A DNA stretch of 64,000 nucleotides from Chloranthus sessilifolius. Its lineage: Eukaryota > Streptophyta > Magnoliopsida > Chloranthales > Chloranthaceae. The stretch is from NCBI GenBank assembly GCA_021018995.1, contig JAJIZI010000020.1, positions 1-64,000 on the forward strand, in the 5' to 3' direction. The position numbers were made by a program, and so were the translations under genes. The notes below the pieces were generated by a model. The model saw only the letters and a program-made list of their open reading frames with translations. It was not told where the DNA came from and made no database searches. Below, in pieces: positions 516 to 47,767 of the stretch. The first letter of the stretch is position 1, and each line of letters starts with the position of its first letter.

Positions 516-928
516 TGTAGACACCCAAATTTGGCCCAAGGCCCGATCGAAACACCTTTCGAGAAAGGTGCGCTTTCGAGTTTTTGATGGCATGTATGGA
601 ACCTTTAGGAACCACCCTATAACCCTTCTAAACCCTTAGGAATCACCCTAGATCCCTTAGGAACTTGCCCCAAAGCATTAAAAATCAATCCCGACCCTTA
701 GAACCTGTTCTAAACCTAAACCTAACCTCCTAAGCCTTGGAAAAAGGAGTGGTGCACCAAAACTAGCTACCACCATCTACTATAATCAAATTTCATACCA
801 TTGAAAAGTAGAACTTGTCAGCTTTCCAACGGTCTAAGAATCACCCCAATCGGAGTTGTACACTGAAAGATATGGCGGTCCAAACCCGGAGGGCAAGTCG
901 GTAATTTCAAGTGGGCCCCCCTAGGGAT

Positions 929-1123
929 TTGGCGCAACTAATAGTTGCGCCAATTATAATTTTGCCTGGTACAACTATTAGTTACGCCAGGCCACTTCTC
1001 CCAGGATTTAAGTCTGGCGCAACTATTAGTTGCGCCAATTTTAAATGTGGACCCCACCCTCGCGAGCCAACTTCCACCATTGTTCATTACTATTTTACTG
1101 TACATTTGTCTGGTGCAACTAAT
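929..1123 (+). promoter_or_regulatory. Array of GGCGCAACTA-arm palindromes in the Tat-3 LTR
   Basis: 929-953 is a perfect inverted repeat with 12-bp arms (TTGGCGCAACTA) around one A. 965-991 is a degenerate copy (CCTGGTACAACTA arm, two mismatches). 1015-1037 is perfect with 11-bp arms around one T. 1110-1123 keeps one half-site (CTGGTGCAACTAAT). Centres are at 941, 978, 1026 and about 1121, that is 37, 48 and about 95 bp apart. The array lies 280-470 bp upstream of the LTR TATA box. It occupies slots that in Tat-2 hold a different palindrome. Confidence 0.85.
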
Positions 1124-1401
1124 ATGAACAGTAACTCATGGTTTTTGCCTCGAAATTTGTGATTGGGGTTTGACTTATTGACCACCTTGACCTTTGGAGT
1201 CTGTTTTGATAGTCCTGGTGCACCCATTCACTACCTATTTGCGACCCTTTGAGTGGCTTAAAGCCTCACCCCATCATCCACCATTGAAGGACCTTCTCAC
1301 ACATTTCAAGGCTCCAAAAACTCTAAAAAACTTTAGATGTTAAATTACCTAATTTCTAATCCTAATTAGCATCTAAACACCCTCCAAATCCGCCCATTTC
1401 C

Positions 1402-1409
1402 TATAAATA
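1402..1409 (+). promoter_or_regulatory. TATA box of the Tat-3 LTR
   Basis: TATAAATA followed by AGAGACCCCC, in a C-rich context typical of plant LTR promoters. The Tat-2 LTR has the same box at the homologous place (17698-17705, minus). It defines the U3/R side of the LTR. Confidence 0.65.
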
Positions 1410-2124
1410 GAGACCCCCACCCCTAGGTTTAAGGGTTGAGAATTTCTACCTAAGAGAGAAAGAGGTTAAAGTGAGAAGATCTTTCTCCCTTTGGTGCGCA
1501 CCTCCCATACAAAATCTAAAATTCCAAAACCTCCTTCCAAGCCTTACACTTCATCTAAAAACTCTATGTTAGGTGTGTGTGACCTCCTAGCCTCCCTCCC
1601 CTACCTCCTAGCTTCAAGCCTTAGGAGTTATAACCTCATTTTCTACCACACAAAGCCTTCAAGAGCTCATTAAAGCAAGCCACGCAAGGCTCCCCTACGG
1701 TGATACAAGGGCCTGAGGGCTCCGGCTCTCCCCTTTCTTCTCCTATCTCTTTCTAGCTCACTCCATCCTCCCATTTGTGTAGTTATGCCACCGACTTTTT
1801 GGTAGAAATGGAGGGGCACAAATAGGAATCTAAGCCCTTTTGGGCAAGAGGAAGCTATTTTCTTTTCTATTACTTCATTTTATTTCTGGCCATAAGTAGA
1901 GACCACATTAAGCAGGTTGATCGGGTGCCTAACACCTTTCCGATTGATAATCTAAGCCCCTACCCAAGAGCCTTTGGTGTGGACCGGATTCAGAGTCATA
2001 TTTTTAGCACTTCGGTGCTCATAAAAATGATATAGGTATCCCGGGACAATAAAAGCTCCGGGTGGCAACTCTATATTTTTCGTTAGCGAGCGCATCGCCG
2101 CGACGGGATCGTCACAGATCCCAC

Positions 2125-16850: not shown

Positions 16851-17697
16851 TCAGATCTTGAGGGCTTACTAAAGATGGCTCCCTTGGAGCTTAAGATCAA
16901 TTTCCCTGTGAGACAAACTCTTACTTATCAAAACTTGCTACAATAGGCCCTGTATCTTCCAGGATTGTGCATATTTTAGGCTTGCTGCTCTGTCATTTTC
17001 AATCCATGGATCCTCTCGAACCCGTCGTAGCGATGCGCTCACTTTTAATGAAATGAAGAGTCACCACCCGGAGCTTTTGGTGACCTGGGAAACCTTCAAA
17101 TCAATATTTTGAGCACCGAAGTGCTAAATATGACTCTGATTTATAGGTCTTTACCAAAGGCTCTAGGGTAGGGGCTTCGATTATTGATCGGGAAGGATTT
17201 AGGCACCCGATCAACCCGCATGTAGCAGTCTCTATCTATGGCCAAAAAGAAAAATAAAAGGGCGGAGTTTCCCCTTGCCCGAAGGCAATATGGTCCTATC
17301 AAGATTTGAGCCAAACCGAAATTTCGGCGGTGTAACGGCTTGAATCCTTGGACGTAGGAGACACCAAGAAGGTAGAGGAAGAGAGGGGTGAGCCGGAGCT
17401 CACGGGCCCTTGTTGCTCCGTGGAAGTCCTTCGCTTTGGTGTGCTTCCGATGGCTTAAATGGTGTGAAAATGGGTTCTAATGCTAGGATTCAATAAAATA
17501 GGAAGTATAGGGTGAGGCCAAAGGCTAGACTTTAGCTAAAGGGAGTGATCTAATGGTTGAAATGGATTGAAAAAGATGAACTAAGCTTGCTGGATTTCTG
17601 GAAAATAAGTGGCATTTTCTCTCACTAGAGTTCTCTCTCTTAAGCTCTCTAGTCTTCCAACAAAATTTTCAACCCTTTGGGAAGAGGGGGGCCTCTC

Positions 17698-17705
17698 TAT
17701 TTATA
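17698..17705 (-). promoter_or_regulatory. TATA box of the Tat-2 LTR
   Basis: Minus strand TATAAATAGAGAGG, about 885 bp after the LTR start, at the homologous place to the Tat-3 box. The nearest palindrome centre is about 290 bp upstream. Confidence 0.65.
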
Positions 17706-17986
17706 GAGAAGGGATGGGTTAGGGGCTTATTTAAGAGCTAATGGGTTTAGCAATTAGGTAATCCATCATCTAAGGTTTTCTAGGTTTTCAAGGTCCTAGG
17801 ATTTTGGGGAAACTGATTTCAATGGCAGATGATGGGGTGAGACCAAAGGTGACTTAAGGGTTGCCAATAAGCTTAAAGGGGGTGCAACCAATCTCAAGAT
17901 ACCCACCTTAACTAAGGGGATGGTCAAAGGGTCAAACTAGATGAAGGAAATTCGAGCAACTAATGACAGTTACTGTAGCTAAGCTG

Positions 17987-18201
17987 GGCATATATATTAT
18001 ATACGCTAAGTTTAGGAACAGTAAATTTCACCAAAAACAGGGAAGCCCTGGGAAGATGAAGCCCGTGGTGGGTCCCACCTATGTCGGGCATACGTATTAT
18101 ATACGCCTGGCCAAATTTCCCCCAAAAATGGCAGGCGTATATAATATATACGCCTGACTAATCTGGGGCCAAATTGGCTGGCCGTATGTAATATACACGC
18201 C
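17987..18201 (-). promoter_or_regulatory. Array of GGCGTATATA-arm palindromes in the Tat-2 LTR
   Basis: Four inverted repeats: 17987-18007 (two mismatches), 18087-18107, 18132-18156 (perfect, 12-bp arms CAGGCGTATATA around one A), and 18180-18201 (degenerate). Centres are at 17997, 18097, 18144 and 18191, so three are spaced exactly 47 bp. The flank GGTGGGACCCACC (minus strand, 18068-18080) aligns with TGTGGACCCCACC (1045-1057) next to the Tat-3 palindrome at 1015-1037. The slots are therefore homologous although the palindromes are not. Confidence 0.85.
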
Positions 18202-18589
18202 TGAGTAAAAGTTTTATGATTTTATGTGAAACTTCAATCGGCCATAACGTTTGACTCGCAACTCCAAATCTGGTGATTTTTGGCTTGTTGGAAAGTTGGA
18301 GAAGTTCCCTTTCCAACGGTATATAGCTCATCCTTAGTAATGGTCTGTGTGAAATTCTGTAGCTCGCCTCCCATTAAACTACTCAGGAAGGTTCAAGTTA
18401 GGTATGGGAAGGGAATCTAGGGTTTAGGGGTGATCTCTAAGGGTTGGGGAATGGTTCTAAAGGGTTCAGGGTGATTCCTAAAGCTCTGGGTGGATTCCTA
18501 CAAGTTCAGGGGTGCCATCAGAAGCACAGGGGTACATCTCTCCCGAAGTACAGATTGATCGGGCCTTGGGCCGAATTTGGGTGTCTATA

Positions 18590-18605
18590 GATGCCCCTCT
18601 TTGGT
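18590..18605 (-). promoter_or_regulatory. Polypurine tract of Tat-2
   Basis: Minus strand CCAAAGAGGGGCATC abuts the LTR start at 18589. It is identical to the Tat-3 tract at 501-515. Confidence 0.75.
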
Positions 18606-20530
18606 ATTCGATCACTAATGATCGGATGCCAAAGACAAGAGACATCCAAAGAGGTCCAAGGCACGTTTGATGGGTCCACCTGGTTCAACCTAATTCTCAA
18701 ACATTCATGGTGATGGTGAGTGTACGTAAGCCCTCTCATTTCGGGATATCGTCCGTACCTCAAAGCTAACAGTTCCCAAGCGCATTACGACATTACTGGG
18801 CATAACTGCGATGATCACAAAAAGTGTAAGCCCACTAGCCGGGATATCGTCCACTTCTTGAGGGAAATTATAGATTTGTGATGTTGAGTATTAAGCTGAA
18901 CCAAACAGGTCCATGAAATGGGATGATCGATCTATGCTTCGGAATTGATGCGAAGCACACAAAGCGAAGGTCCAATCAATGTGTGCAATCCTATGGGGTA
19001 TTGACAGCTCCATTGGATTGGGCACGGGTGCCCTTACCTAGGTAAGGCTCAAAATCTTTTGGGCGGACCCAACAACCTGAAGGCTTTTTTTTTTTTTTTA
19101 GCATGCTTTACCCGAGTGAAGCGAATATTGATGTCGCAACACTTCTTGGGAATGCATGCCCATTTTCTGAGTAATTTTCTTTTGTTTCAAGGCCTCTAAG
19201 CAAACCTCAAGGACATCTGACAACTTTATTTTTGTACAACTCTTTAAGTGGATCAAATGTCAATATATATGCTTTAAGAATGCATGCGCTATGCCAGGGA
19301 TAGGTGCACCTTGGGGATGTGCTCGTTCTGGTGGCAAGGTGCTCCTGATTCACATGAACCGGAATGCCTTAACTCGAGACAAAGCTAAAAAAGATCAGGC
19401 TAGAACCAAATATCCCTCGAAAGAGATGGCCAATTCTAGCCTCCGTCCCTAATGAAATCACATTTTACTAAGTATGCACAGACAGACACCCATCATGGGT
19501 GATAAGCAGCAAAATAGGTGCGAACGGAAGCCTCGACCCTAAGGTATAATTTACGAGGACAAACGACCATCCTGCGGATACCCTGACGCAAGTGCGTACA
19601 TTCAATAGGGACACCGTGCCTATACAGGTTTTAAGCCCGTGTAAAAGGAAATAAAAGGGAATGAGCCCTTCGGTCTGTATGTTTGCACATAGTTTGGTTG
19701 GTGGTAATTTTATTTTTGACGGGTCAGTTTCAACTGACAATAGACTTTTCAAATGGTCTGAAGTCGGGGGCACTCTTGGTCAACATAGATCCATAAGTGG
19801 ATGATCAGAGCTAATGCTTGGAAGGTGGGGTCAACCTACTCAGGATTTTCATTATGTAACAACAGGTTGTTATTTCTTCTCTTTTTTCTTTTTTTTCTTC
19901 TTCTCCTTTTTCATGTCAGTTTGAGACTATGAGCATGCTCAAACTGCCTTTATTTCTGCACGTATCCTTAGGCGAATCAACCTGCCATGTTGATATACCT
20001 TAGGGACGTGTGCATTCTGGTGATGGGCTCTTAGTTTGCCCGCCGGATCAGGCATCGACCTCTGCTGGGGGAGATCTGGGGCTATGTGTATGCTCCTAGG
20101 AGTGACCGGTGATGAATGAAATTCATTTGCCTGCCGGATCAGGTAAGGGGTGTCCCGGTATAAGACGGGGTTCGAGAACTTTCGAGTGGACCCTGATCAT
20201 TGATTTAACACGGTTCTCGGAGTGGTGCAAATGGTCGTTGCAGTGCTCCTTTGAGAACTAGTGTCACTTTCGGCATTTTCTTTCTTCTTTTTTTCTTTTT
20301 ATTTTTCCTCTTTTTTTCTTTCTTCTTTTCTTTCTTTTCTCTTTTTTTTTTGTGGGTGCATTAGGTGGGCGCCTACGGATCTTGACCCGTTTATTATAGC
20401 ACGATCCCTTTGGGCCAATCGAAGGAAACTCGAAGGGTCCGTCTAGGGGGGCTGGACCGGGTCTATAGCATACAAGGGGTCCGTCTGGGCCTCGAGAATC
20501 AAAATGGCTGTGTAGTTAAAAACTAATTAT
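18606..20530 (-). other. Tat-2 3' UTR, non-coding
   Basis: The part near the LTR (18606-19130) aligns with Tat-3 1-500. The rest has long pyrimidine runs (19876-19912 and 20270-20350) and no conserved frame. Two blocks repeat 'GCCGGATCAGG' (20042 and 20134). I see no gene; the Phe-rich plus-strand frame around 20261-20446 is a by-product of the T-rich tract. Confidence 0.55.
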
Positions 20531-20534
20531 TTGT

Positions 20535-20598
20535 CAGCGATATATTATATACCGACCAAAATCTGGGAAAAATGGTCGGGCATATATATTATACGCCT
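20535..20598 (+). promoter_or_regulatory. GGCGTATATA-type palindromes in front of the plant-mobile-domain gene
   Basis: 20535-20556 (CAGCGATATA, T, TATATACCGA) and 20578-20598 (GGGCATATATA, T, TATACGCC), centres 43 bp apart. They are the same palindrome family as in the Tat-2 LTR. The nearer one is about 26 bp upstream of the TATA box at 20614, so they are placed like proximal promoter operators. Confidence 0.75.
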
Positions 20599-20613
20599 GT
20601 TTAAAACCGGCAT

Positions 20614-20620
20614 TATAAAA
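20614..20620 (+). promoter_or_regulatory. TATA box of the antisense plant-mobile-domain gene
   Basis: CATTATAAAACCGCCTGAG. The second antisense gene has a matching TTTATAACCCGAGCCTGG box at 24624, also just 3' of the palindromes. Transcription start is expected near 20645. Confidence 0.6.
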
Positions 20621-20639
20621 CCGCCTGAGTCGAGCACAA

Positions 20640-23600
20640 AGGGGTCCCCTTTTCAAATTTTGTCTTTCTTCCTCCTTCCTTCCTTCTTGAGTTGGGACCC
20701 CTAGGGTTTTTGCATTTGATTTGGCTTGAGTTCTATTACGGAGTTGCTTGGTGTGGATCGAAGAACGCTTATCCTCATGATTTGTTTTCTCCCTCATTGA
20801 AGGTAATCATTACCCTTCCTTTATTTTTCTTTTGAATTTTTGATGATATTGCCTCTCTTTTTTTTTTTTTTTTATATGGTGAAATGCTCTGTGATGCCTA
20901 TATTCCTTTTTCTCTCTTTTTGTTTTTGTTGTTTTCCCCCCTTTTTTTTTTTGAAATATTTGATTCCATAGGCCTATTTTCCATCCATCATTCATTTTTG
21001 TTTTTCTTTCTCTTTTTTGTTTTTGATGGATTAGTGCATTTTATTTGATGGATTGGTGCCTCTCCTCTTTTTTTTGGGATTAGTGCATACATATATTAGT
21101 ATACGTATATATGTATTATTTTATTTTATTATATATTTTTTTGTTTGGTGGATTAGTATACACACACACATTTTTTTGCTTGTTGATGGGTTAGTACATT
21201 TATACACACATTTTTTTTTTGGATTAATACGCACACATTTTTTTGTTAATGGGTTAGTACACACACATTTTTTGGATTAATACGCACACATTTTTTTTGT
21301 TAATGGGTTAGTACACACACACATTTTTTTTTTTTTGGATTAGTACACACACATTTTTTTGGATTAGTACATTTTTTTTTTTGTGTATATTTATTTTATT
21401 TTTTTTTGTTGTGTTTGTTTTTTTTTGTTTTTTTTGTTTGTTTTTTTTTTTTTTTTTTTTTGTTTTGTTTTTGTTTTTTTTTGAATTAGTACATACACAC
21501 ATGGTTTTTTTTTTTTTTTTTAATAAGATTTTTTGTCTTTGGATTAGTGCATATATATATTTTTTCTTTTTTTTTTTTTTTTTTTTTTTTGTGTTGGCAT
21601 CCTTCTCATATGCCGATGCATCTCATATTTTCAGGATGTCCGGTGAAGAAGGGCATGATCAGCAAGAGGGGCCGGAGATGGCCTATGGTCCCCGTGGGAA
21701 ACAGTTCATCATGTCTCAACGCTCCTCCCAGCCTTGGTATGAAATGCAAGGCGAGGCTGCCCATACCGGCCTCCTCTACTGCCAGCACACCCATATGTCC
21801 AACTTTGGGATCGTCGGTCAGGTAAACAGATGAGCCCGCCCCCCCCTTTTACTCTTTTGTTTTCCTTTGATGTCTTCATTATACCACCTTGCCCCTATCT
21901 GATTGATGCCTTTACATTGCTACGCCGCACATTATGTTCCGAGGCGGTTGGTTCGACCTCCAGTGTCTCGTGCTTTACCTTCCCCCAGTGGTGAAGGACC
22001 TGCTCACCAATGCCGGTTTCGGGGATTTCATTTCGTGTCCCGCCGTGAGGGCCGATACGGCCTATCTGAAGGCTTTGATAGAGCGTTTTTGCCCCGAGAC
22101 CATGACATTTCACATGGCCGTGGCAGAGATGGCCTTTACACCTGCAGACTGGTCTATGATCACTGGGTCCGTATTGGAGGGGTGCCCGTGGTACCGACTC
22201 GTACACTGGGTAAGGAGGAGGTGATTCGACTGATAGGGGCCTACCCGACCTCTGGGAATATTCAGGGTTCTGAGGTCAAGCTGTCCTGGCTGGTTGATCA
22301 ATTTGAGCCTCACGAGTTAGTGGACCAAGGCCAGCCTGACATGGCCATTTATCTCGAGCCCGCACGCGCACATATGCTGGCCCGCATTGTTTTGCTATTC
22401 CTCCTGCGCAAGACTCTCCTCTCCAACACCGATGAGGCGAGTCTCATTGTCCTACTTTCGGCTGATGGTGGCGGAAACCGTGCATCGATTTGATTAGGCG
22501 GTGGCTATCTTTGTACTCATGTCCAGCCTAAAGCGAGCCGTTCTTGGGGAGTCTAGCTCTATTGTGGGTTTCTGGCCTGCCATTGAGGTATTTTATCCTT
22601 TGGTTTTAGCTTGTCCAATTTTCTTTTATAGCACACCTGTCTTTATCTTCTGGCTTTCTAAGATTTGGGGGTATCTTCACTTCCAACCGGGTCGCCCTCT
22701 GCTTCAGTCTGAAGTTGCTACGTTCCCCCTCATGAGTAACTGGCACGTGAGTCGCCGTCGGGACATAGGTATGAAGCATTTGGAGTTAGGGATGTGCTCT
22801 CAGTTCGACCTGTTTATCTCAGAGCAGGTAAAATAATTCCCATTTTATAAATTTGATAGCTCTTGTGTGCTATAGGTTCTGACCAAATGTGTGTATCCTT
22901 CCTCTGTTTTCTCTTCTTTTGCAGGTCATCCTCGACCCCTACATAGGATCTCCCTTTTGTAACTTGGCCTCAGTGGGTCCTTCTCACTTTTTGCTGAACC
23001 GTCGCATCATCTTCCTTTACGGGTCCTGGACTAGGGCCTACTATTTAGGGGAGAGAGTGGTTCATCAGTATCGCCCTCTCTTTGCCGTGCCCCAAGCTCC
23101 TCCCGCCATGTGTTAGCTCCAGAAGGCTCCATTGATGAGCTTACTACTCACTTTCTTCACCATGGGGTTCCTATCGATGACGTTCTCCTGCTCGGGGGTT
23201 ATCAAACGTGGTACGATTCCCTGCCCTATCATTTCTTGTTGCCCCGCTTCGTGCCTAGTGCTAACTTTTTAGCTTTTGGCAGGTCGCTATCTCAGGTAAT
23301 GCCCCTTTTCTCTTTTTATTTAGCAGCTTCCTTGTGATTACTTTGATTGACCAACCACCTTTAATGATAAAATATTTCTCTCTACAGTTTGAGCAGGGTG
23401 GCGACTCAGATGAGGGGGATGAGGCAGCTACTCCTTATGATGCTACAGGTGCTGGTGCTTCAGGCATGGCTTCAGGTGCTGGACCCTCCAACCCTTCTAG
23501 TGCTGGTGCTTCTGGCAGTTCACCTACCGTGGTCCTGGGGACTTTCAAATGCTTGGATGATGCCTTTCTGTTGCGCGTGTGTGCCGACATGGCAGAGAAG

Positions 23601-24032
23601 GCACGAATCTCTACTGAAGCTATCTAGGTCCCACCTCCTGAGTTGATTCCTGGGGTAATCTCTATCTCGTTGCTTTGTTCTCCTTCCCTTTGAATTATGC
23701 TGATGGCCTGTGTGATTAACACCTCCTTTTTCTTACTGGCCAGGATTATGAGTCGGCAGTGAGTCAAGCTGAATATTATCGTAACCTTGTTGGGCTTAGG
23801 GAGATCGAGGTGGTGAGTGAATGCTGACCCAACCTAGTTATTTTCTTTATTTTCTTTCTGCCTGTTTCTCTACCTGATGGCTTTTGGTGTGTTCCTACAG
23901 CGTGCTCGTGAAAAGGAGTCGCGTTCCCTTCTCAGCCGTATTTCTCAGGCGTGGACTCGGGTGCGGGAGACTCGTACCTTTCAAAGCGCGAGCCGGCGCC
24001 AGAAGAAGTCAAAGGGGGCTGCCCATGACTAG
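20640..24032 (+). pseudogene. Multi-exon antisense gene with a plant mobile domain (PMD, transposase-derived)
   Basis: Predicted structure: 5' UTR exon to 20802 (AAG/GTAATC); intron 20803-21634; ATG 21636 (MSGEEGHDQQEGPEMAYGPR); donor CAG/GTAAAC at 21822; then the PMD-like part with GFGDFISCPAVRADTAYLKA, PETMTFHMAVAEMAFTPADW and RTLGKEEVIRLIGAYPTSGN. An in-frame 75-nt intron (22588-22662) leads to IWGYLHFQPGRPLLQSE. Further GT-AG introns: 22828-22924, 23296-23387, 23655-23743, 23813-23900. The C-terminus is basic (SRRQKKSKGAAHD, stop 24032). Lesions: frameshift near 22167, frameshift near 22470, TAG at about 22494 in FD-stop-AVAIF, TAG near 23113, TAG near 23625. PMD proteins derive from transposases, and plant MAIN/MAIL1 act in nuclear silencing. 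The role here is unknown; DNA binding is inference. The family call rests on motif resemblance. Confidence 0.7.
21053..21540 (+). repeat. T-rich minisatellite inside intron 1 of the PMD gene
   Basis: Degenerate repeats of about 25-35 bp built on GGATTAGTACACACACATTT or GGGTTAGTACACACACA followed by runs of T. At least nine copies lie between 21063 and 21370, then poly-T/TG continues to 21600. The long pyrimidine tract runs up to the acceptor TTTTCAG at 21634. Confidence 0.7.
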
Positions 24033-24435
24033 TTTATTTTCTATAAATTTGACATAATGAAACAGTTTAGACTTGGCTTTATTGGGGATATGTAATAACT
24101 TTTAAACAACAATTTTTTTTTTGGATGGTTTATAATTTTTATGCTTTATATGAATGTTTCATTTGGTTATCCCCTTGCTTTGATGGTTTCCCTTTTTTGT
24201 TTTTTTGTTGGGCCGGGCATGGCACCCTCAATGATGGAGTCGATCTTGCAGGTGATTCTCCGTATATAACCTACGGGTAGTGCGTCCTCCAGGGGCTTCC
24301 CACAGGTGTGCAAGTATGCCTGCCTGTGGATTGCCTCGAGATGAAAGAGTGGGCCAACCAAAAAATAAGTTCCTCCTTGGGGAACAAAAATGGACCACTG
24401 TGAGAGGGGGCCTTGCCAGCCCCGGCTTTAAACTG
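24033..24435 (+). other. Spacer between the two antisense genes
   Basis: A/T-rich 3' flank of the PMD gene with GACATAATGAAACAG and TTATTGGGGATATGTAATAAC, a plausible polyadenylation region, then a GC-richer stretch leading to the palindromes. No gene is seen. Confidence 0.5.
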
Positions 24436-24598
24436 GGCATATATATTATATACGCCTGACAAATGTTCAGCAATAATGGCCGGGCGTATATAATATATAC
24501 GCCTGGTAAATCCATGGTTAAAATGGCCGGGCGTATATATTATATATGCCTGGCAAAATGTTTCAAAATTTTGCCTTGTCGTATATAATATATACGCC
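24436..24598 (+). promoter_or_regulatory. Phased palindrome array in front of the DUF7745-like gene
   Basis: Four palindromes with 10-bp arms around one central base: 24436-24456, 24483-24503 (perfect GGCGTATATA arms), 24530-24550, 24578-24598. Centres 24446, 24493, 24540 and 24588 are 47, 47 and 48 bp apart. The last lies about 40 bp upstream of the TATA box. Same palindrome family and spacing as in the Tat-2 LTR. Confidence 0.9.
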
Positions 24599-24623
24599 CG
24601 TTATAATTTGGGCTCAGCGGGCT

Positions 24624-24631
24624 CTTTATAA
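24624..24631 (+). promoter_or_regulatory. TATA box of the DUF7745-like gene
   Basis: CTTTATAACCCGAGCCTGG, about 150 bp before the ATG at 24776. The following text resembles that after the PMD gene TATA box. Confidence 0.6.
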
Positions 24632-24775
24632 CCCGAGCCTGGTCCCCCCTTGTCTCCTCCTCCACCTTGGTTTGGCCTTTTTGCCCCTACTTTAATCTTT
24701 TCCCTCCCTTTCTTTTTTCTAGTGTGTCCATCGTCATACATTGACTGATTTTATAAAGAACATCTTTGTACGTCG

Positions 24776-26254
24776 ATGGACCCGCCTTTGAAAAGGGGCC
24801 CAAGCTCTTATACGAGGGATGGTACACTTCCCTGTTTGGACCCGGGGCCTAATTTTTTGCAAAAATGGCATGATAGCTTGGCTGAGAGCAAGCTTGCTGT
24901 TTTGAATTGCCTCGGGTTGTCCCGCCTTTCCTCTCTGCTTGCTATCCCTCTGTTGCCCAACCTACTATAGGCAACTTTGGCGTCATGGGACCATAGGGCC
25001 CATGTCTTTAGATTTGGGTCTAGGGAGTTGACCCCAACCTTGGAAGAGCTGGCCTCTATTACTGGCTTGAAGATGCATCGAGGCCTTGCTAAAGTGGTGC
25101 TCAAACCGCGGTATGCAAGGGCGGTCCAAGCGGTTCTTGGTTTAAAAAAGGGTGGGTATGAGAAATGTTTCGCCGGAGGGCCCACTAGGTCTTCGATGAA
25201 ATTCCTGAGAGAACTTTTCGGCAACTCGAGTCTCCGAAAGTTTCCCATTCAAGATCCCTTCAATGTAAAGGCCTTTGCCCTTTATTTGCTGTCGGAAGTT
25301 CTCTTCTTTACTGGGGGCGAGAACTTTTCCCTTGGGTCATGATGTCTTGGCCCGAGTTGGAGGGAGCCCGCTCATTGGTCCACCTAGTCTTGGTTTAGAT
25401 GTATCGGGGCCTAGATGCCTCAGCCTCGGGCCGGGTTGGGATTCTCAGTGGGAGCCTGCTCCTCATTCAGATTTGGCTAGGAGAGCATTTGGCTATCATG
25501 GGGCCTGTGCCGAGAATGTGCTTGATAAGAGGGGATGTGGCTCGGGGCTTTCTGATCTGGTGCTCAAGATTGCCTCATGGGAGCGCCGAGGCCGAGTACA
25601 TGTGCTCGAGATCTGGCTGATTTGGCGACTTCCAGTTGGGAATCTTCCGATTGTCCGCTCTCGAGATTGTGAGGGTATCACCCTATTGGGGTTGACCTGT
25701 AGCACATATTATTTCCCATCTCGGGTGCTTCGTCAGTTTAGGTATACCCAACATGTGCCATGCTCTGTGAGGCCACCTTTGTGCTCTCTGATATTTTCTC
25801 GGGGTTTTCTCAGTGATCTCGACTGCATAGCCACCCTCTGGGAGACCCGCCAATCAGCGCACATGTTCAGCTTAGTTCAGGGGGGCGTCGTCTCTCCTGA
25901 TTACGAGGTTTGGCTGGTATCTAAGGAATTACTTACCCCTAGCCTAGTTTCGGTAGATGTGATAGAGACGGGGCCTTGGCCATGTAAGGAAGCAATGCTT
26001 CGGACCAGGATCGAGTCTCTTTCTGTAGAGAGGATAGCTTTGACCGAGGCTTTGGGGAAAGAAAGGGTCAGAGCGGAGATTGAAGTGAGAGCGCCACGGT
26101 GAGTGAGGTTCTTGGTTGGTGGGCTTTTGAGTCTCGTGGTGTTGAAGCTTCAGGAGAGAAGAGTCTTCATGGTAGGTGGATGTCTGATCGAAATGCCCAC
26201 GAGGACTCTCTGCTTGCCGAGATTAGCGCTTTGAAGCGTGCTCCCTGCCCTTGA
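24776..26254 (+). pseudogene. DUF7745-like antisense accessory gene (copy 1)
   Basis: ATG 24776 gives MDPPLKRGPSSYTRDGTLPC and an N-terminal block (NFLQKWHDSLAESKLAVLNC). After a frame break near 24965 comes WDHRAHVFRFGSRELTPTLE with LASITGLKMHRG, then KKGGYEKCFAGGP, FNVKAFALYLLSEVLFFTGG, LLIQIWLGEHLAI, GITLLGLTCSTYYFPSRVLR and a C-terminal helical part (LRTRIESLSVERIALTEALG) likely to be coiled coil. The 'FRFGxxELTPTLEE...L' block and the later I/LxLWLxEHL block resemble the DUF7745 family often linked to Tat elements. Breaks: TAG near 24970, a garbled patch at 25340, TAG at 25396-25398, a patch near 25590-25645 and one at 26085-26150. Function is unknown. Confidence 0.7.
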
Positions 26255-26594
26255 CCTGTTCTTGCACATATCATAGATTATATACACGGAGGGGAGGAAT
26301 GCCCCCTAACAGAGATCTCTTTTTGGGTTATTTTTCTCTTCTTTTTTTTGGTTATATATATACAGATATATATATATATATATATATTTTTTGGTTTTTT
26401 ATCTGTAAAGAAAGTAGCAAAATAGAAAGTGTGTCATGTCGTTATCTTTTTGGGACGTGACACTCCGCACGTAATACTGTAAGAAATGGAATGAAATCTA
26501 TAGATACATATATTTTTCATTTTTCGACTTTTTTCCTTTGTACGTTTCGCAATGTAAGGCTTTTTACGAAGATTTTCGCCTCGACAAAGTGGAG
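26255..26594. other. A/T-rich tail after the DUF7745-like gene
   Basis: Contains a (TA)n microsatellite at 26353-26390, longer than in copy 2, and otherwise A/T-rich DNA. No gene is seen. Confidence 0.6.
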
Positions 26595-26845
26595 CTTTTT
26601 ATGGGAAAGGGAAATCTATTATCTTTTTTGAAATTTTCTCCTCCACAATGTGGGGTACAGTGTGAGGTTTTTTATGGGAAAGGGAAATCTATTATTTTTT
26701 TATTTTTTTGAAATTTTCTCCTCCACAGTGTGGGGTCTTTTATGGGAAAGGGAAATCTATTATCTTTTTTGAAATTTTCTCCTCCACAGTGTGGGGTTTT
26801 TTATCGGAAAGGGAAATCTATTATCTTTTTTGAAATTTTCTCCCT
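26595..26845 (+). repeat. Minisatellite of 57-75-bp units (copy 1)
   Basis: Four to five tandem units built on TTTTATGGGAAAGGGAAATC, then TATTATCTTTTTTGAAATTT and TCTCCTCCACAGTGTGGGG. Units differ by short inserts (for example 'TACAGTGTGAGG' at 26657). Copy 2 has the same array at 45078-45328. Confidence 0.8.
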
Positions 26846-27966
26846 TTGGGTCTTTTGTGATGTCGGTAATTTATAAGGCCAAACCAGTGGGTCTTTTTTG
26901 AGCACGGTCGAACCCTGTTCATGAGATCTGAGTTTTCCTTTAAGCGTCTGAAGGTCGACTTCCTGAGGATTGGTCTAGTCTTCTGTCTTTCCCTTTGGTC
27001 ATGCGTTAGATGTCGCGGTGGAGATGACATACTTGATCGGGATCTGATCTAATTTTTACATGAGTGGGCCATCGAAAAAGGGGGGAAAGGGGCTCAAGGG
27101 GTTCAAACTGAAATGGGCAGGCCAGAACAGGTCTTCTCCTAATCTCTCTTTCCTTGACATTTTTGCTCATAGCACCCAAGACGGCTTTTCGCCATGCCCG
27201 TCATCCCTGTTTTTACCCGTAGGGCCCTTTCGAGTTTTCACTACGTCCATGGGTTCGATTTCTTACCCCAGGCGCCCTTTCAGGTTTTCACTTGGTCCGC
27301 GTGGGTTCACTATTTTTACTCGTGGTGCCCTTTCGGGTTTTCATCACGTCCATCTTGCTTTGAACCCAAATTAATTTTCTTTTTTTCTCTTTTTTTTTTT
27401 CTTTTTTTTTCTTTAGCACCAGAAGGCCACGACATGGACGTCGATTCCTTCATAGCCGGCTGAATGAAGTTCTGTGTGGTTTGGTAACTCAGCTTGTTCT
27501 GATGCAGTAGATGTTATGACCGCTTGTGGACCTTAAAGAGGGCTTTCTTCCGGGTTGTAATGTGGCCGGGGTTCAAATAGGTTGGGTTTTTCTGGGAATT
27601 TGGATCTAAGCTTTGAGTGAATTTGGTGACTCCTCTTTCTTTCCAAAGGCTTTTTATGCCCCAGTCATTTCTTTTTACTTGGTCCCCCTCTTTTTTTGCT
27701 GGGGGGTTTTACTTTCTTCTTCTTCTTTCTCTTTTTTCTTTTTTTTTTGGTTTTGATTTTCCCTCTCTTCTCTTTTCTCTTTTTCTGGAATTTTGGGAGG
27801 GGTATATGAAAGAAATGGTTATTGGCCCGACGTGTGTAGCAAAAAGGGTGAAGGCTTTCAGAGAATATTTCTTTTGGGCTACTTGTCTTTGAAATGATGG
27901 CCTCTTCTATGGGGTCCTTAAGCGGTCACGCATCTACTATTATCAAAACTCACCTTGTCTAAAGAT
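26846..27966. other. Tat-2 spacer between accessory genes and integrase (copy 1)
   Basis: No conserved protein domain on either strand. Three degenerate ~50-bp units carry GCCCTTTCGGGTTTTCA-like text at 27224, 27274 and 27327. T/C-rich tracts lie at 27370-27412 and 27715-27785. The short plus frame starting MSGPSKKGGKGLKGFK at 27060 is open to 27374 in both copies but shows no domain, and it contains the repeat units. Confidence 0.5.
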
Positions 27967-29236
27967 CTATTAGTAGAACTTACTGAGGTATCCAGCGTTG
28001 ATGGGCTTAGGAAAGTGGTCTCCGTCCATGGTGGCTAGGCGAACGGCGTATCCTGGCAAAACCTCTCGGGCAACGTAGGGTCCTTCCCAATTTGGCCTAA
28101 ACTTCCCTCTTGGATCGGCGTAGAGAGACGAGAAAATTTTCTTTAGTACAGTGTCTCCTACCTTCAGATCTCGACTGCGGACACACTTATTATAAGCACG
28201 TGCAATTCTCCTCTGATAGATCTGGGTGTGGCACAAGGCTAGGAGTCTCTTCTCGTCAATCAAGTCTAGCTGTTCAAAATGGGCTCTTTCCCTCTCAACT
28301 TCAGGTAGATGGGATTCCAAAAGGATACGGAGCGATGGTACTTCGACCTCAATGGGTAGCACGACCTCGGTCCCATACACAAGGGAGAATGGTGTTTCCC
28401 ACATGCGATGCGGATAGAGCGTTTAATAGGCCCAAAGTCGAAGGGTTGCTCCTCCAATCTCTATAAGTAACTACCATCTTCTCGGGATGAATCGAGTTTT
28501 GTTGGGCGCCTCTCTGACTCCATTAAATTGTGGCCTATGGGGATGATCGATGATGCTTGATCTGAATCTCACCAAAATTAGTGCCATTATCAGTGATGAT
28601 ATCTTTGGGTACACCGAATCTGCAAATGATGTTGTTCTTGATGAACTTCTCGACATCACTGGCCTTAATGCTCGTGTAGGAGGCTGCCTCTACCCACTTT
28701 ATAAAATACTCTACTGCGACGAGGATGAACTGATGTCCGTTGGAAGCCTTAGGATTGATTTTGCCAATGACGTCGAGACCCAAGGTGGCGAACGGCCAAG
28801 GAGTGGCCATGCTGTGCAAATCAATGGTCGGAGCATGTATTAGACTGGAGTGTTCTTGGCATTTGTAGCATACGCGTGCTTGCGTGAATCGATCTCCAAA
28901 GTGGTCTAAAAGTATCCTTGTACCTTAGGATTTTCTTAGCAAGCATGTGTCCTTGGCGTGCCTCATTGACCCCTTCATGGATCTCCTTCATGATCTCAAC
29001 CGCTTCTTTCTGGGTTAGGCATCAGAGCAAAATATTGTCGTGAGACCGTCTATGCAGGAGATCGCCGCAGATGACGTAGTTCATTGCCAATCGCTGGATG
29101 GTGCATCTGTCTACCTTCGATGTTCCTTCTGGGATAGTTCGGGTCTCGAGGAAATTCTTGATGTCCGAGAACCAGGGTGGTTCATCATCTAAATCTGTAG
29201 GTCCTTCAATCAAGTGATAGAAAGCCGGTTCGTCCC
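27967..29236 (-). pseudogene. Tat-2 integrase (copy 1)
   Basis: Zinc-binding N-terminus degraded around 28870-29020 (QKEAVEIMKEIHEGV, then lost text). The core has GLDVIGKINPKASNGHQFIL (first D), YFIKWVEAASYTSIKASDVE and FGVPKDIITDNGTNFG (second D). The region expected to hold the catalytic glutamate near 28500 is garbled (PQFNGVREAPNK). The C-terminal part is long and open (28404-27970): TPFSLVYGTEVVLPIEVEVP, ERERAHFEQLDLIDEKRL, LKVGDTVLKKIFSSLYADPR, KFRPNWEGPYV and GYLSKFY-stop. Copy 2 preserves the glutamate block better. The spacer up to 29236 includes a TAG at 29231-29233. Confidence 0.85.
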
Positions 29237-29237
29237 T

Positions 29238-29745
29238 CTACTCTATCATGATCGGCTTCATCACAACTCTGTATGGAATCTCAACCATAAAGGCCAGGGT
29301 GGCCAAGGCATCAGCAAACTGATTTCTTACTCGTGGCACATAGGAGAAGGTGACCTCCTCAAAGCAAGTTATTAGATCCTCAAGATGTTCATGGTATGGG
29401 ATCAGTTTCTCATCCTTGGTCTTCCAATCTCCGTTGGTCTGGCATATAATTGACTGCAAATCTCCAAACACCCTAAGGTGAGTTATATTTAGATCAAGAG
29501 TCACCTATAAACCAACTGTACAGGCCTCATACTCGGCCATATTGTTGGTGCATGGGAAGTTCAATTTGATTGAGATGGGTATATGTGATCCTCTGGGCGA
29601 GATAAGAATGGCGCCAACTCCTTGGCCCTCAACATGCGATGCTCCATCAAAGTGCATTACCCAGGACTCCTCTGTTTCCTCTGTATCCTCGTCAGTCATG
29701 AACAGAATGTCCTCATCGGGGAATTCAATCCTTAGAGGCTCATAG
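29238..29745 (-). pseudogene. Tat-2 second (archaeal-like) RNase H (copy 1)
   Basis: SWVMHFDGASHVEGQGVGAI (catalytic D), ISPRGSHIPISIKL, TNNMAEYEACTVGL (catalytic E), a TAG at 29505-29507, then VTLDLNITHLRVFGDLQSII (third D), KDEKLIPYHEHLEDLITCFE, VRNQFADALATLAF (fourth D). All four catalytic acids are present on either side of one stop that sits where a Gln is expected. In copy 2 the third block reads FGDSQ, the usual form, so Leu here is copy-specific. Confidence 0.88.
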
Positions 29746-30890
29746 TCTGGCAGAGGGTTCTCAGCAAGATGATCAGCGAGTGCCTGCCCATTGATTGACT
29801 TTTGGGTGACATAAGTAATGTCAAATTCGGATAGGAGTTGTTGCCATCATGCAGTTCGGCCAGTGAGTGCAGGTTTCTCGAATAGGTACTTTAGCGGATC
29901 CATCCGTGCTAGAAGTAGGACGGCTTGGGATAACAGGTAGTGTCGAAGTCTTTGAGTAGCCCAAACGAGCGCCAAGCATGCTTTCTCCAAATGAGAATAA
30001 GCGGCGTCTAATGTCGATGAACTTCTTGCTTAGATAATAGATGGCCTGCTCTATTCTTCCGGTATCATCATGCTATCCTAACACACAGCCCATGGAAAAC
30101 TCTGTCGTTGATAGGTACATTATTAGAGGTCTATCGGGTACGGGTGGAACCAATACCAGAGATTTTAGGAGGTAACCCTTAATCTTGTCGAATGCAGCTT
30201 TACAGTCGTCATTTCATTCAACCGGTGAGTCCTTTCTTAGTAGTTTGAAGATTGGTGCGCATATCGAAGTTAACTATGCAATGAATCGACTGATGTACTA
30301 GATTCTGCCTAAAAAGCCTCTAACTTCCTTCTCTGTAGATGGTGGCGGCATTTCAGTGATGGCCTTGATTTTCGTCGGATCGACCTCGATCCCTCTCCTG
30401 CTAACAATAAAGCCCAACAACTTTCGACGACTGGCAGAAAGGCGCACGAGGGGTTCAAAGCTGTACTTTCTCAACCTCTCGAACAGCTTCTAAAGGTTTA
30501 TCAAGTGGTCCTCCCTTTCTGGTGATTTGGCAATCATGTCGTCGACATATACTTCGATCTCTTGGTGCATCATGTCGTGGAACAGGGCCGTCATTGCTCT
30601 TTGGTAGGTTGCCCCAGCATTCTTCAGCCCGAATGGCATTACTTTGTAGCAGAAGGTTCCCCAGGGGGTAATGAACACTGTCTTCTCGCGATCAACCTCT
30701 GCCATCTTTATCTGATTGTATCCTGAGAATCTATCCATAAATGAGAGCATTCCATGCTTTGCAGTGTTATCGACCAGGATATCGATGTGGGGTAGTGGGA
30801 AGTCGTCCTTAGGGCTTGCCTTGTTGAGATTGCAGAAATTGATACACATTCGAACCTTTCCATCCTTCTTCGGTACGGGGACAATTTTAG
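29746..30890 (-). pseudogene. Tat-2 reverse transcriptase and first RNase H (copy 1)
   Basis: RT: MCINFCNLNKASPKDDFPLP, FMDRFSGYNQIKMAEVDREK, VMPFGLKNAGATYQRAMTAL and EIEVYVDDMIAKSPEREDHL (YVDD box intact). The frame then breaks at 30490 with a TAG after INL, and the thumb/connection part at 30400-30480 is garbled relative to copy 2. The gypsy RNase H (about 29800-30250) survives only as short broken frames. Confidence 0.85.
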
Positions 30891-31499
30891 CTAGCCACTG
30901 CGGTACTTGGATACCATGAGAAACCCCGCATCATACTGCTTGATGACCTCGTCTTTGACTTTCAGCATCCATTGAATTGAGCGTCTCGACCGCAATGGCT
31001 TAACATTGGGATAGAGTGGAAACTCATGCTCAACCAGATCGGTATCCAAACCAGGCATGTCTTCATACGACCATGCGAAGACGTCTTGGTATGACCGATG
31101 GAAGTCTATCATGCCCTTCCTCTCCGCAGGGGACAGCGATGTTCCGATTTTGGTGATTCTAGGGACCTCTTTGGTGCCCAATTTGACATCCTCCGTCTCT
31201 TCGACTATCGGGTTAGGGCCATGCTCAAAATCGGCAAATTGTTTGAGGAGCTCATTGGGGAGCTCATTGGTTTGACCTTCCTCGTCTAGACTCGTGACTC
31301 CTACCTCTTCTTGTATTTCTACAGGAAAGGGGTCGGCTTCACGTGGGACGGGTATTACGACATCAACTTCAATCTTATTGGGAATTTTAAAGGACAATAT
31401 TTTTGGAATTGGTATTTTTTCTATCTTTATGGTCTTTTGCATTTTTTCGGAGGTCAGCCCCTAGCGAGGTGGATCTCTATATATACAAGGTAGAGTGGT
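30891..31499 (-). pseudogene. Tat-2 pre-RT linker (copy 1)
   Basis: Open from 31442: MQKTIKIEKIPIPKILSFKI, VVIPVPREADPFPVEIQEEV, LPNELLKQFADFEHGPNP, then TSLSPAERKGMIDFHRSYQD and FAWSYEDMPGLDTDLVEHEF, and MLKVKDEVIKQYDAGFL at the RT border. The WSYEDMPG block is the one also seen in Tat-1. In copy 1 a patch at 30970-31010 reads RSRRSIQWM where copy 2 reads KQKLRRLRPEWM. Confidence 0.8.
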
Positions 31500-32290
31500 C
31501 CAGAGGCTACCTTCACTTTTTACAGTTGTTTTTTTGGGAGTCGGTCTTTCATTTTCACGGTATTTGGCGGCTCAAGAGTTGGGGCAAGGATGCCCGATTA
31601 CTCACCATGAGGCTTACCCTTTACCTCTCTGATTGGGAGTGGCATCGGTAGGCTCTTATAGTTCCTCCCTCAACATATTTATAGAGGGATCCTCTGGGAC
31701 CCTATCCTCTATGGTTTGGATGGGCCCAGAGTGGCTGGCGCCGGAGCGATGGGTGGGCCGGGGAACTTCTTCCTCGAATAAGGAAAGGGCGACCAAGTTC
31801 ATTTCGAAGTCTGGGGGGATGATGTAGGGATTGGTGGGGTGGATTGAAGTAGGCTTATGTGGGCTTACCCTCGTCTCCCCATTTAGGTCAATTTTTACTA
31901 CCTCGGCGCTCAAAAAGGTTTCACGGATGTGGGGGCGACCATGAGGTACCTCTTCCAAGATGATTCCTCTGGCCTTGGCGACTGCTATGACTCTCATCTT
32001 TTCCTTGGCCTCTCTGACTTCCTCTTCTCTGGGCCAGTAGCCTAAGCCGAATTTAGTCTGTTGCCCCTTGGCCTTGACGGGGTCTCTTCTTCCTTGGAGG
32101 CGTGGGCCCAGCCCTTTCCCTTTTTGATGGCCCCATCTGTGGAGCATGAACACAGCTGCGTCCATTCCTCCTCCAGTTTTATCCGGGATCTTTTTAGTTG
32201 ATTCGAGGGAGACGGCTGAGAAGTCATACTCGAATCGGTGAAGGTCGGTGTCCTCTATTGTGTGCCGTATGTTCAGCACTTTTGGATTCT
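31500..32290 (-). pseudogene. Tat-2 G-patch region downstream of protease (copy 1)
   Basis: The 207-codon frame (32279-31656) begins MLNIRHTIEDTDLHRFEYDF. It contains GMDAAVFMLHRWGHQKGKGL with GPRLQGRRDP, a G-patch signature (M-L-x-x-x-G-x-x-x-G-x-G-L-G with a second Gly-rich part). Then comes an acidic/basic helix (REEEVREAKEKM) and RPHIRETFLSAEVVKIDLNG. G-patches bind RNA or RNA helicases; betaretroviral proteases carry one too. It follows the protease in frame order, as it would in a gag-pol polyprotein. The frame ends in TAA near 31656; the segment to 31500 is poorly coding. Confidence 0.75.
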
Positions 32291-32900
32291 CAATGTGCAG
32301 GGTGCTTCTTTCCTTGTCTTCTTTCCTCTCGCCGAAGATGGTAATAATTTTTCCTTCTGAGATGAATCAGAGCTTTTGCTACAAGGTAGATGGTATTGCT
32401 CTGAGCTTATGTATCCATGGGATTAGCAATGTATTGAAGACTTGATGTCCATCACCTGAAAGGGGGTAGTGAAGGTTTGTGACCCGAGGATCAGGTCGAG
32501 GTCTACTTCTCCTATGATTTCTCTTCTGGTGTTGTCGAATCCCCCGGCGCTTGATATGGATGGCCGGAAGGTGTCGGGGTTCGCCCCAATTTTGATTACC
32601 ATTCTTAGAGGGCATACATTCAATGCCGACACGTTGTCGATTAGGACCAACGGCACCACCAAGTTTCCTACTTCCACTATTATATTCAAGCGCTTAGAGT
32701 GGTCATTCCCCTCGATTGGTAGGTACGCATCGGTGAATGAGATGGCATTTGGGGCCAACACTTGCCCTATTATTTCTCCTACTTCATCTGGAGTTACGTG
32801 GGTGGAGACATGTGCGTCCTTGAGTGCTCCCATCAGGGCTTGGAAGTGGAGGGGGGACGTGATTAACAAATTCCAAACAGTGATATGTGCGGGTGTTCTC
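32291..32900 (-). pseudogene. Tat-2 retropepsin (copy 1)
   Basis: Open frame 32869-32423: MLITSPLHFQALMGALKDAH, the conserved pre-domain, then VEVGNLVVPLVLIDNVSALN with VCPLRM (active site), SSAGGFDNTRREIIGEVDLD, LILGSQTFTTPFQVMDI. Copy 1 breaks at 32430 before the LLGRPWIH motif, which copy 2 retains. The active site reads D-N-V-S where Tat proteases more often read D-N-G-S or D-T-G-S; both copies share the Val, so it predates the duplication. Confidence 0.8.
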
Positions 32901-33342
32901 TTGAGCTGTCTCTAATATATGTTCTCTGGCCATTTTTTCAAAGGGATTCCCTATAGCCTATTATTTCCTCTTCTCTTCTCCTCTAACGGCCCCTGATGCC
33001 TCCGGCTGTGTAGAAATCTGGCCTGATCGGGTAATAAATTCAACAGCCTCCTCTTAGTTGCACTTGGCATTCATGTCCGTCTATTCATAGCTTAGCAGCA
33101 CTTGATGCGGGTCATAGGCAGGTTTCGGGATAAGGAATGGAGTGCATGATAATTTTGGGGAGGATTGGGTTGGACACGCCAGTTTCTCGGGTCCTACAAG
33201 GTTGACTCAATAGAGGTGGACGATTGGGGGAATTAGCGAGGTTGAATTTGCAGTGGGGAGGGGGCTGTCTGGTGTGCACAGGCATGGTAAGACCAGTGGT
33301 GATTGGGAGCAGGTGATAAGGGGATTGGTTGAGGGGTTGCTT

Positions 33343-33914
33343 GCTTGGGTGGCGGTGGAGTTGGATTGGGGCCAAAATAACGAAGGGATGGCAGGAGTGT
33401 GACTAGGATGGAGGGATGGGGAGACATCTGAGGAGTGGGTGATAGGGATATGAAGGGTTTGTATATGGGGTGGCAGGGTGGGATGATACCGGATTCGTGG
33501 ATTACATATGGTAAATTAGGGGTAATGGAGTTGTGCATGGAGCGGGATGATTGGGACATGGCGGGGTAGTGGGTGGAATAGGGGGATATGAAGGGTTTGT
33601 GGCATGGTGGGATGATGATGGGTTGCCTGCTTGGGTGGCGGTGGAGTTGGATTGGGGCCAAAATAACGAAGGGATGGCAGGAGTGTGACTAGGATGGAGG
33701 GATGGGGAGACATCTGAGGAGCGGGGTGATAGGGATATGAAGGGTTTGTATATGGGGTGCCAGGGTGGGATGATGCCGGATTCGTCGATGACATATGGTA
33801 AATTAGGGGTAATGGAGTTGTGCATGGAGCGAGATGATTGGGACATGGCGGGGTAGTGGGTGGAATAGGGGGATATGAAGGGTTTGTGGCATGGTGGGAT
33901 GATGATGGGTTTGT
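33343..33914 (-). repeat. Two tandem 286-bp units in gag (copy 1)
   Basis: 'GCTTGGGTGGCGGTGGAGTT' occurs at 33343 and 33629, exactly 286 bp apart, and the whole interval repeats with few changes. The minus strand encodes Pro/His/Ser-rich units (MAPIQLHRHPSRQP..., MSPHPSILVTLLPSLRYFG). Shorter GTATGGGGTA-type repeats continue to about 34150. Copy 2 has the same pair at 51898-52470. Confidence 0.8.
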
Positions 33915-36415: not shown

Positions 36416-36451
36416 GGGCTTGGGCTTGGGCTTGGGCTTGGGCTTGGGCTT
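36416..36451 (+). repeat. (GGGCTT)6 microsatellite in gag (copy 1 only)
   Basis: Six GGGCTT units on the plus strand, coding for Ala-Gln dipeptides on the minus strand. Copy 2 has only two units at the matching place (about 54981-54992). Four G-triplets with 3-nt loops fit a G-quadruplex-forming pattern. Confidence 0.8.
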
Positions 36452-37828: not shown

Positions 37829-37836
37829 TATTTATA
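37829..37836 (-). promoter_or_regulatory. TATA box of the Ath-2 LTR (copy 1)
   Basis: Minus strand CTATAAATAG. Copy 2 has it at 56397-56404. Four CCAAT elements lie just upstream in the minus sense. Confidence 0.65.
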
Positions 37837-37867
37837 GTTTCTCCCAGGTCTAGCTCAGATGTGTATC

Positions 37868-37976
37868 GACCAATCAGAAGTTCTTAGATCTGTATCAACC
37901 AATGGTAGTCGAGCACGAGGATCCAGATCTGTTTTGGCCAATCAGAATTGCTTGATTTGTTTCAGCCAATCAGATG
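37868..37976 (-). promoter_or_regulatory. Cluster of four inverted CCAAT boxes in the Ath-2 LTR
   Basis: CCAATCAG at 37870, CCAATGG at 37899, CCAATCAG at 37938 and 37965 on the plus strand, so inverted (ATTGG) relative to LTR transcription. They sit 35-140 bp upstream of the TATA box. Present again in copy 2 near 56438-56540, where the fourth reads TCAATCAG. Such clusters are classic NF-Y targets; binding here is inference. Confidence 0.55.
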
Positions 37977-38002
37977 ACAGAGGCATCAATTCTGTTATGT
38001 AA

Positions 38003-42899: not shown

Positions 42900-43062
42900 G
42901 GCATATATATTATATCCGCCCGACAAATGTTCAGCAATAATGGCCGGGCGTATATAATATATACGCCTGATAAATCCATGGTTAAAATGGCCGGGCGTAT
43001 ATATTATATATGCCTGGCAAAATGTTTCAAATTTTTGCCTTGGCGTATATAATATATACGCC
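42900..43062 (+). promoter_or_regulatory. Phased palindrome array (copy 2)
   Basis: Palindromes at 42900-42920 (one arm changed to TATATCCGCC), 42947-42967, 42994-43014 and 43042-43062. Centres 42910, 42957, 43004 and 43052 keep the 47, 47, 48 bp spacing. The upstream 120 bp differ markedly from copy 1 while the palindromes are kept. Confidence 0.88.
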
Positions 43063-45860: not shown

Positions 45861-45891
<31 letters not shown>

Positions 45892-47766: not shown

Positions 47767-47767
47767 T

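Follow-up and report, generated by a model that had tools for sequence, protein, structure and literature searches.

Family-specific palindromes at the long terminal repeat and two antisense promoters of a plant retrotransposon as candidate operators of a self-encoded circuit

Introduction

Among the closest described systems is the anti-silencing system of the VANDAL transposons of Arabidopsis, in which an accessory protein, VANC, is paired with short motifs in non-coding DNA that often form tandem repeats, as set out in passages of Hosaka et al. 2017 (PMC5735166). According to the same passages, related VANDAL families have different motifs, and protein and motif are thought to co-evolve. 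Here we describe Tat-2, a long terminal repeat (LTR) retrotransposon of Chloranthus sessilifolius (assembly GCA_021018995.1, 2.17 Gb searched). It lies at the start of a contig (C27; JAJIZI010000020.1, positions 1 to 64,000), and this stretch of 64,000 nucleotides is called the window below. Tat-2 is oriented on the - strand, two genes on the + strand, antisense genes A and B, are located between its 3' LTR and pol, and odd-centred palindromes of the form GGCGTATATA-N-TATATACGCC are present in the U3 region of the LTR as well as directly upstream of both genes.

As in VANDAL elements, a family-specific motif is repeated in the non-coding DNA of the element. VANDALs are Mutator-type DNA transposons, however, whereas the host element here is an LTR retrotransposon, with LTRs and profile matches to reverse transcriptase (72.5 bits) and an integrase core in the element or neighbouring copies. 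VANC21 binds the 9-base non-palindromic motif YAGTATTAY (passages of PMC5735166), whereas a palindrome of 21-25 bp is located at three TATA promoters in Tat-2. The VANC protein has DUF1985 and DUF287 (PMC5735166), while genes A and B match PMD and DUF7745; in the gene A and B pieces, DUF1985 appeared below threshold in one piece of gene A (16.7 bits against a cut-off of 35.1) and DUF287 was not listed. The system may work like VANC from outside the VANC family, and the likeness is one of analogy only.

Antisense open reading frames (ORFs) between pol and the 3' LTR, with a proposed regulatory role, are described for Retand, where they encode TRP28 (Vicient 2025, passages of PMC11963269). The maize Grande gene23 is likewise an antisense ORF, with its own promoter, a nuclear protein product and a proposed regulatory role (passages of PMC7264820). 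Tat-2 shares this placement with both, and its antisense genes A and B match PMD where Retand has TRP28; the TRP28 domain PF04195 was not listed among 30 pieces scanned, a subset of the ORFs of the elements. The passages on Retand describe no operator, and the string 'Palindrom' is found in PMC11963269 in one reference title alone. Palindromic operators common to an LTR and antisense promoters are not described in the available parts of four open-licence papers (PMC5418596, PMC5735166, PMC7264820 and PMC11963269).

The PMD clades PMD-A1 and PMD-A2 are exclusively encoded by gypsy elements, and gypsy-encoded PMD proteins are widespread among flowering plants, having been either the source of host silencing factors or derived from them (Ikeda et al. 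2017, passages of PMC5418596). Genes A and B probably belong to this gypsy-encoded group, and PMD matches above cut-off are found in genes beside LTRs of the Tat-2 family. Other PMD proteins, namely MAIN and MAIL1 together with PP7L, have been tied to a promoter motif named DOWN, with the chromatin contact of the complex stated as unknown (passages of PMC9899485). The DOWN motif, which reads CATGCAGTTT in the promoter of MORC1, does not resemble the palindrome and was rejected as the same site.

Palindromic sites in the window

All positions of the window were scored against CAGGCGTATATA-N-TATATACGCCTG (maximum 24), and every palindrome that an initial annotation of this DNA had listed in the LTR U3 and the gene B promoter was recovered. 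The site centres are 17997 (18/24), 18097 (20), 18144 (24) and 18191 (19) in the LTR, and 24446 (21/24), 24493 (23), 24540 (22) and 24588 (20) in the gene B promoter. At the gene A promoter, for which sites had also been proposed, the window copy has one passing site, centred at 20587 (17/24); the other, near 20545, is decayed and scores below 16/24 and below 15/20. That the family occurs nowhere else in Tat-2 holds at 16/24, except that the gene B array recurs at 42910-43052 because an internal 18.5-kb stretch is tandemly repeated. A single match of 17/24, at 14139, is situated outside the element and is apparently due to chance.

The sites form arrays of two to four with centres 47-48 bp apart (about 4.5 helical turns). 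At genes A and B the array immediately precedes the TATA box; in the LTR, the TATA box follows the array at a distance of a few hundred bp. The spacing, noted from the start, was borne out by 124 neighbouring pairs less than 200 bp apart from 28 sources, with 64 pairs at 47 bp, 26 at 48 bp and 21 at 100 bp. In a Markov control of 200 random sequences with the dinucleotide make-up of a 9-kb region, 0.005 sites of 18/24, the score used for the chance estimate, were seen per 9 kb. A scan for other near-perfect palindromes (at least 11/12 arm pairs; the window and the 20 Tat-2 copies described below) mostly returned simple AT repeats, along with a small number of isolated sites and an array at 941. 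On the basis of these two analyses and of the genome-wide reversed controls given below, a chance origin of the palindromes was rejected. As a separate observation, the fourth LTR site (18181-18201) is asymmetric in most copies, with TATG in one arm and TGTA in the other, which perhaps points to a different affinity or a mixed dimer.

Tat-2 copies and genome-wide abundance

Twenty of 40 scored LTR matches were fetched (L009-L028), and all 20 carry three or four LTR sites at 17/24 or better. Ten of them (L009, L011-L013, L015, L016, L018, L020, L022 and L023) also carry this type of site at one or both of the promoters of genes A and B. The gene A promoter is better preserved in several of these than in the window, with scores (of 24) of 23 and 22 in L011, 23 and 20 in L018, 23 in L009, 23 in L012, 22 in L022, and 20 and 22 in L023; the pair is intact in L011, L018 and L023. 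The other ten loci (L010, L014, L017, L019, L021 and L024-L028) have no internal array of their own type and are uninformative on concordance. Relatives, whether intact or decayed, keep the sites at the accessory-gene promoters, a point on which the proposal of the initial annotation depended.

The exact 21-mer of the Tat-2 type, named TATATA after its inner arm, occurs at 8,687 places in the genome. A second type, CAACTA (GGCGCAACTA-N-TAGTTGCGCC), has 9,405 sites and the pattern TGTNTA (GGCGTGTNTANTANACACGCC) has 922, while the reversed control gave 0 for each of the three. Exact TATATA and CAACTA sites cluster at 1.9-2.7, 3.8-5.0 and 6.3-7.3 kb among the first 50 listed sites per type, as judged from coordinates, and TGTNTA sites cluster at 1.4-2.8, 3.7-3.8 and 5.5 kb, distances that agree between the families. 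General frame patterns spanning the types were GGCGNNNNTANTANNNNCGCC and GAGTCGGTNACCGACTC, and rarer symmetric inner-arm types include CAAG, CAGG, TATG, TGTC and TGCA.

Related families carry their own palindrome type

The second LTR of the window, which by eye starts near 518, contains an array missing from the initial annotation, with centres at 941, 978 and 1026 and the inner arm CAACTA in place of TATATA. Scoring with this array gave 40 matches, of which four regions were fetched (L029-L032). In L029, CAACTA-type sites are located at the LTR (707-888), at the gene A promoter (3064, 3112, 3160) and at the gene B promoter (7186, 7234, 7282, 7329), and both genes are recognisable (65-73% DNA identity in pieces, about 45-59% protein identity). 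L032 has CAACTA-type sites at the same three places. In L030 they form LTR and internal arrays, with no gene match found there, and L031 has the LTR array and just a decayed site (15/20) at the expected gene A position. A relative thus has its own palindrome type at the LTR, gene A and gene B promoters, and a third type, TGTATA, has the same layout in one element. The latter (L064) carries exact sites 0.9 kb and 4.6 kb inward of its LTR edge. At 0.9 kb (L073) three sites with 47-bp spacing precede the TATA-like TTTTTAAAC; the gene A search for this element covered 451 bases of L073. At 4.6 kb (L074) three sites precede CCTTTTAAGCCCGAG and a relative of gene B (51% over 167 residues, E 4e-52). 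Four TGTGTA-type sites stand before the same kind of core promoter in a further region (L075).

An LTR-start pattern matched 3,983 and 3,965 places, of which the first 40 of the ordered list, all on contig C1, were sampled at 851 bases each. Arrays are present in 27 of these 40 LTR junctions, compared to 0.016 template matches per shuffled LTR; the tally consists of 27 found with the general template, minus L057, which was discounted as chance, plus L058, which was found by type score. Most sampled arrays are CAACTA or TATATA, and TGTATA, TGTCTA or TGTGTA-like arms are seen in L043, L045, L046, L052, L055 and L064.

All 15 elements with arrays both in the LTR and at one or more internal places agree throughout in their prevailing type: 11 are TATATA (the window and ten copies), three CAACTA (L029, L030 and L032) and one TGTATA (L064, L073 and L074, whose adjacent coordinates led us to treat them as a single element). 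Across the promoters of one element the palindromes are 80-89% identical (five elements), and between two families, palindromes at the same promoter are just 59-66% identical (one pair compared). The arms also change together. In 230 sites chosen by their outer frame alone, the arms match at the variable positions 5, 7 and 8 in 206, 206 and 182 cases, against 123.6, 112.6 and 95.4 expected if they were independent, whereas at position 6 they hardly covary (193 against 180.2). In genes A and B, third codon positions differ between families by 0.56-0.61 and second positions by 0.22-0.29, with overlapping tblastn pieces partly counted more than once; coding has therefore been kept while silent sites diverged widely, and yet the frame, spacing and placement of the sites persist.

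Candidate reader and proposed circuit

The suggestion that the sites are operator-like at three promoters of one element stands up well: they recur in independent copies, the reversed controls are empty, and the types differ between families at the LTR, gene A and gene B together. The sites are best read as a family-specific operator common to the three promoters. That they are operators of a self-regulating circuit in this retrotransposon clade is the interpretation we prefer, with a probability of roughly 0.6.

Which protein could read these sites? The initial annotation had named a PMD gene and a DUF7745-like gene. For gene A this is confirmed by PMD (PF10536) matches of 75.1 bits in L015 and 69.4 bits in L018 (cut-off 34.9), the pieces of the window copy giving no Pfam match. 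Gene B turns out to be PMD-type as well: its L016 copy matches both PMD (53.8 bits) and DUF7745 (31.4 bits) above the curated cut-offs, and the window pieces match both weakly. The L016 ORF of gene B matched none of 8,000 candidates of a protein database at E 0.001, and the gene A and B pieces matched no PDB sequence at E up to 1. By eye, the C-terminal part of gene B is coiled-coil-like, and the last piece of gene A ends in SRRQKKSKG (SRRQKKSKGAAHD), which is basic and resembles a nuclear localisation signal. Genes A and B travel with the sites, which makes an element-encoded protein from one of these two PMD-type genes the candidate reader and the most likely one.

Such a factor would bind as a symmetric dimer to each 21-25-bp site; the families share the frame GGCG..TA-N-TA..CGCC, and the family that is read would be set by the four inner bases per arm (TATA, CAAC, TGTA, TGTG). 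The arrays would influence how both accessory genes are transcribed and, over a distance of a few hundred bp, LTR transcription as well, and the PMD factor would activate or anti-silence the LTR of its own family and its own genes. Given this circuit, activation or relief of silencing is the probable sign of the effect, since the array, several hundred bp away from the TATA box of the LTR, is better placed for activation than for steric blocking. For the complete proposal, that a self-encoded PMD protein reads the operator at the LTR and both accessory promoters and that families diverged by joint change of the inner half-sites, and hence would be insulated within one genome, we see about even odds from the DNA sequence. 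If true, the gypsy-type PMD would be a DNA-recognition domain with its target code given. The palindromes are a concrete candidate DNA target for gypsy-encoded PMD proteins. They also hint that regulatory codes private to a family evolve in LTR retrotransposons as they do in VANDAL DNA transposons, with natural variants that could serve for mapping specificity.

Several observations weigh against the operator circuit. Within Tat-2 the LTR palindromes are no better conserved than the rest of U3 (divergence 0.074 vs. 0.068; rotation rank 267/400), and those of the gene A promoter are just weakly conserved (rank 73/240); at the gene B promoter the palindromes have about half the divergence of their surroundings (0.076 vs. 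0.145; rank 28/320). Because the LTR palindromes diverge as the rest of U3 does, conservation inside the family is weak evidence by itself. Both arm covariation and type agreement are passed on by descent, and the cases counted are therefore not independent of one another. The third type is represented by one element and the fourth (TGTGTA) by one promoter array; one site each in L073 and L074 ties with the TATATA type, one site of L064 scored 17/22 for the TATATA type, and weak single sites of another type (15/20) occur in L010, L025 and L027. A four-site CAACTA-type array (L026:2614-2756) lies near a TATATA-type LTR. It lies near the apparent leader of another element, has no recognised gene A or B downstream of it, and was treated as flanking DNA, not as part of a mixed element, because the junction beside the TATATA-type LTR lacks a polypurine tract (PPT). 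An array of this kind is absent from 13 of the 40 sampled LTR junctions, 11 of which belong to another LTR group, while L036 resembles none and L057 resembles the clade over the first ~150 bp alone. Finally, the passages of PMC5418596 state that PMD function 'remains to be determined', with DNA binding undemonstrated and no target DNA named.

Host transcription factors could read the sites instead; the families would then have switched between related host factors, and the proteins of the element would have another role. Activators from the host are required at LTR and accessory promoters, a palindrome ahead of a TATA box is consistent with a site for such an activator, and all our data are DNA sequence, which does not name the reader. 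At least three families with one outer frame, different inner bases and one type each would, however, require several related host factors, every one of them taken up at three promoters. Exact sites also greatly exceed the number expected by chance, counted genome-wide irrespective of their location in elements or host genes. We regard host factors as an unlikely explanation. A function at the RNA level common to all three places was rejected, since the gene arrays appear to lie upstream of the TATA boxes.

The arrays might also be tandem repeats with no binding function, which template switching or gene conversion has copied between LTR and internal promoters. An alignment of the LTR array with the gene B array spans 139 bp at 76%, and the spacers of the 47-bp units are partly similar (56-67% identity compared to 46-52% for shuffled spacers, five elements), so that these arrays share ancestry; moreover, Retand-type elements often have tandem repeats near the 3' LTR (passages of PMC11963269), and copying fits the lack of extra within-family conservation of the LTR palindromes. 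Copying alone, however, would not keep the palindromes alike (80-89% identical across the promoters of an element) while spacers drift, would not alter both arms symmetrically and would not restrict the arrays to positions upstream of core promoters, which makes it improbable as the whole explanation. Very improbable, in our view, is that the palindromes act as DNA structure, be it as cruciforms, nucleosome-free or boundary elements, or preferred insertion targets. The long AT-rich inverted repeats and their regular 47-48-bp phasing would suit such a role, and a reference title cited in the available part of PMC11963269 says that LTR retrotransposons often target palindromes, but structure needs symmetry and neither one sequence per family nor a constant GGCG..TA frame across families.

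Element features and minor observations

The features of the window are collected in Table 1. The LTR at ~17000-18595 is taken as the 3' LTR because a PPT-like stretch adjoins it. An RVT_1 match is located at 30490-30930. The Tat lineage (Ty3/gypsy) is a label adopted from the initial annotation, and it fits the long region between pol and the 3' LTR with its antisense genes.

Table 1. Coordinates of the Tat-2 features and related features in the window.
Feature	Coordinates	Strand	Remarks
Tat-2 3' LTR	17000..18595	-	approximate limits; TATA-like TCTATAAATAG on - near 17700; PPT-like AAAGAGGGGCATC on - near 18590-18605; alignable with the LTRs of the 20 copies fetched
LTR U3 array	17987..18201		21-bp palindromes 17987-18007, 18087-18107, 18134-18154, 18181-18201
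Gene A promoter palindrome	20577..20597		decayed neighbour near 20535-20556; TATA-like CATTATAAAAC near 20611-20621
Antisense gene A	21636..24032	+	PMD-type; interrupted by introns; broken in window copy
Gene B promoter array	24436..24598		24436-24456, 24483-24503, 24530-24550, 24578-24598; TATA-like CTTTATAACCCGAG near 24621-24634
Antisense gene B	24776..26110	+	PMD/DUF7745-type; broken in window copy
Gene B promoter array, second copy in tandem repeat	42900..43062		lies in the 18.5-kb tandem repeat
Tat-1 LTR	518..2110	+	limits approximate; TATA-like CTATAAATAG near 1401; similar to Tat-2 LTR
Different-type palindrome array in another LTR	931..1036		931-951 GGCGCAACTAATAGTTGCGCC, 968-988, 1016-1036; centres 941, 978, 1026

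The internal 18.5-kb stretch is present head-to-tail at 22532-41040 and 41038-59596, the two copies being 95% identical with no LTR between them. In the other LTR group mentioned above, five of the 11 members have a single odd palindrome close to TGAGTCGGTNACCGACTCA (L050:597, L051:593, L056:821, L060:688 and L062:587, in PPT-to-LTR orientation), which may be a further operator type.

By eye, the gene B promoters share a core like TTWTAWRCCCGAG across types (24621-24634 in the window, L029:7366-7380, L074:309-323 and L075:356-371), and the gene A promoters have similar TATA and then CCCGAG stretches. The decay of LTR sites in the Tat-2 copies (17985-18203) is concentrated at CpGs, with a variation of 0.160 at CpG columns compared to 0.053 elsewhere in the palindromes, as would be expected if the sites were methylated in the germ line.

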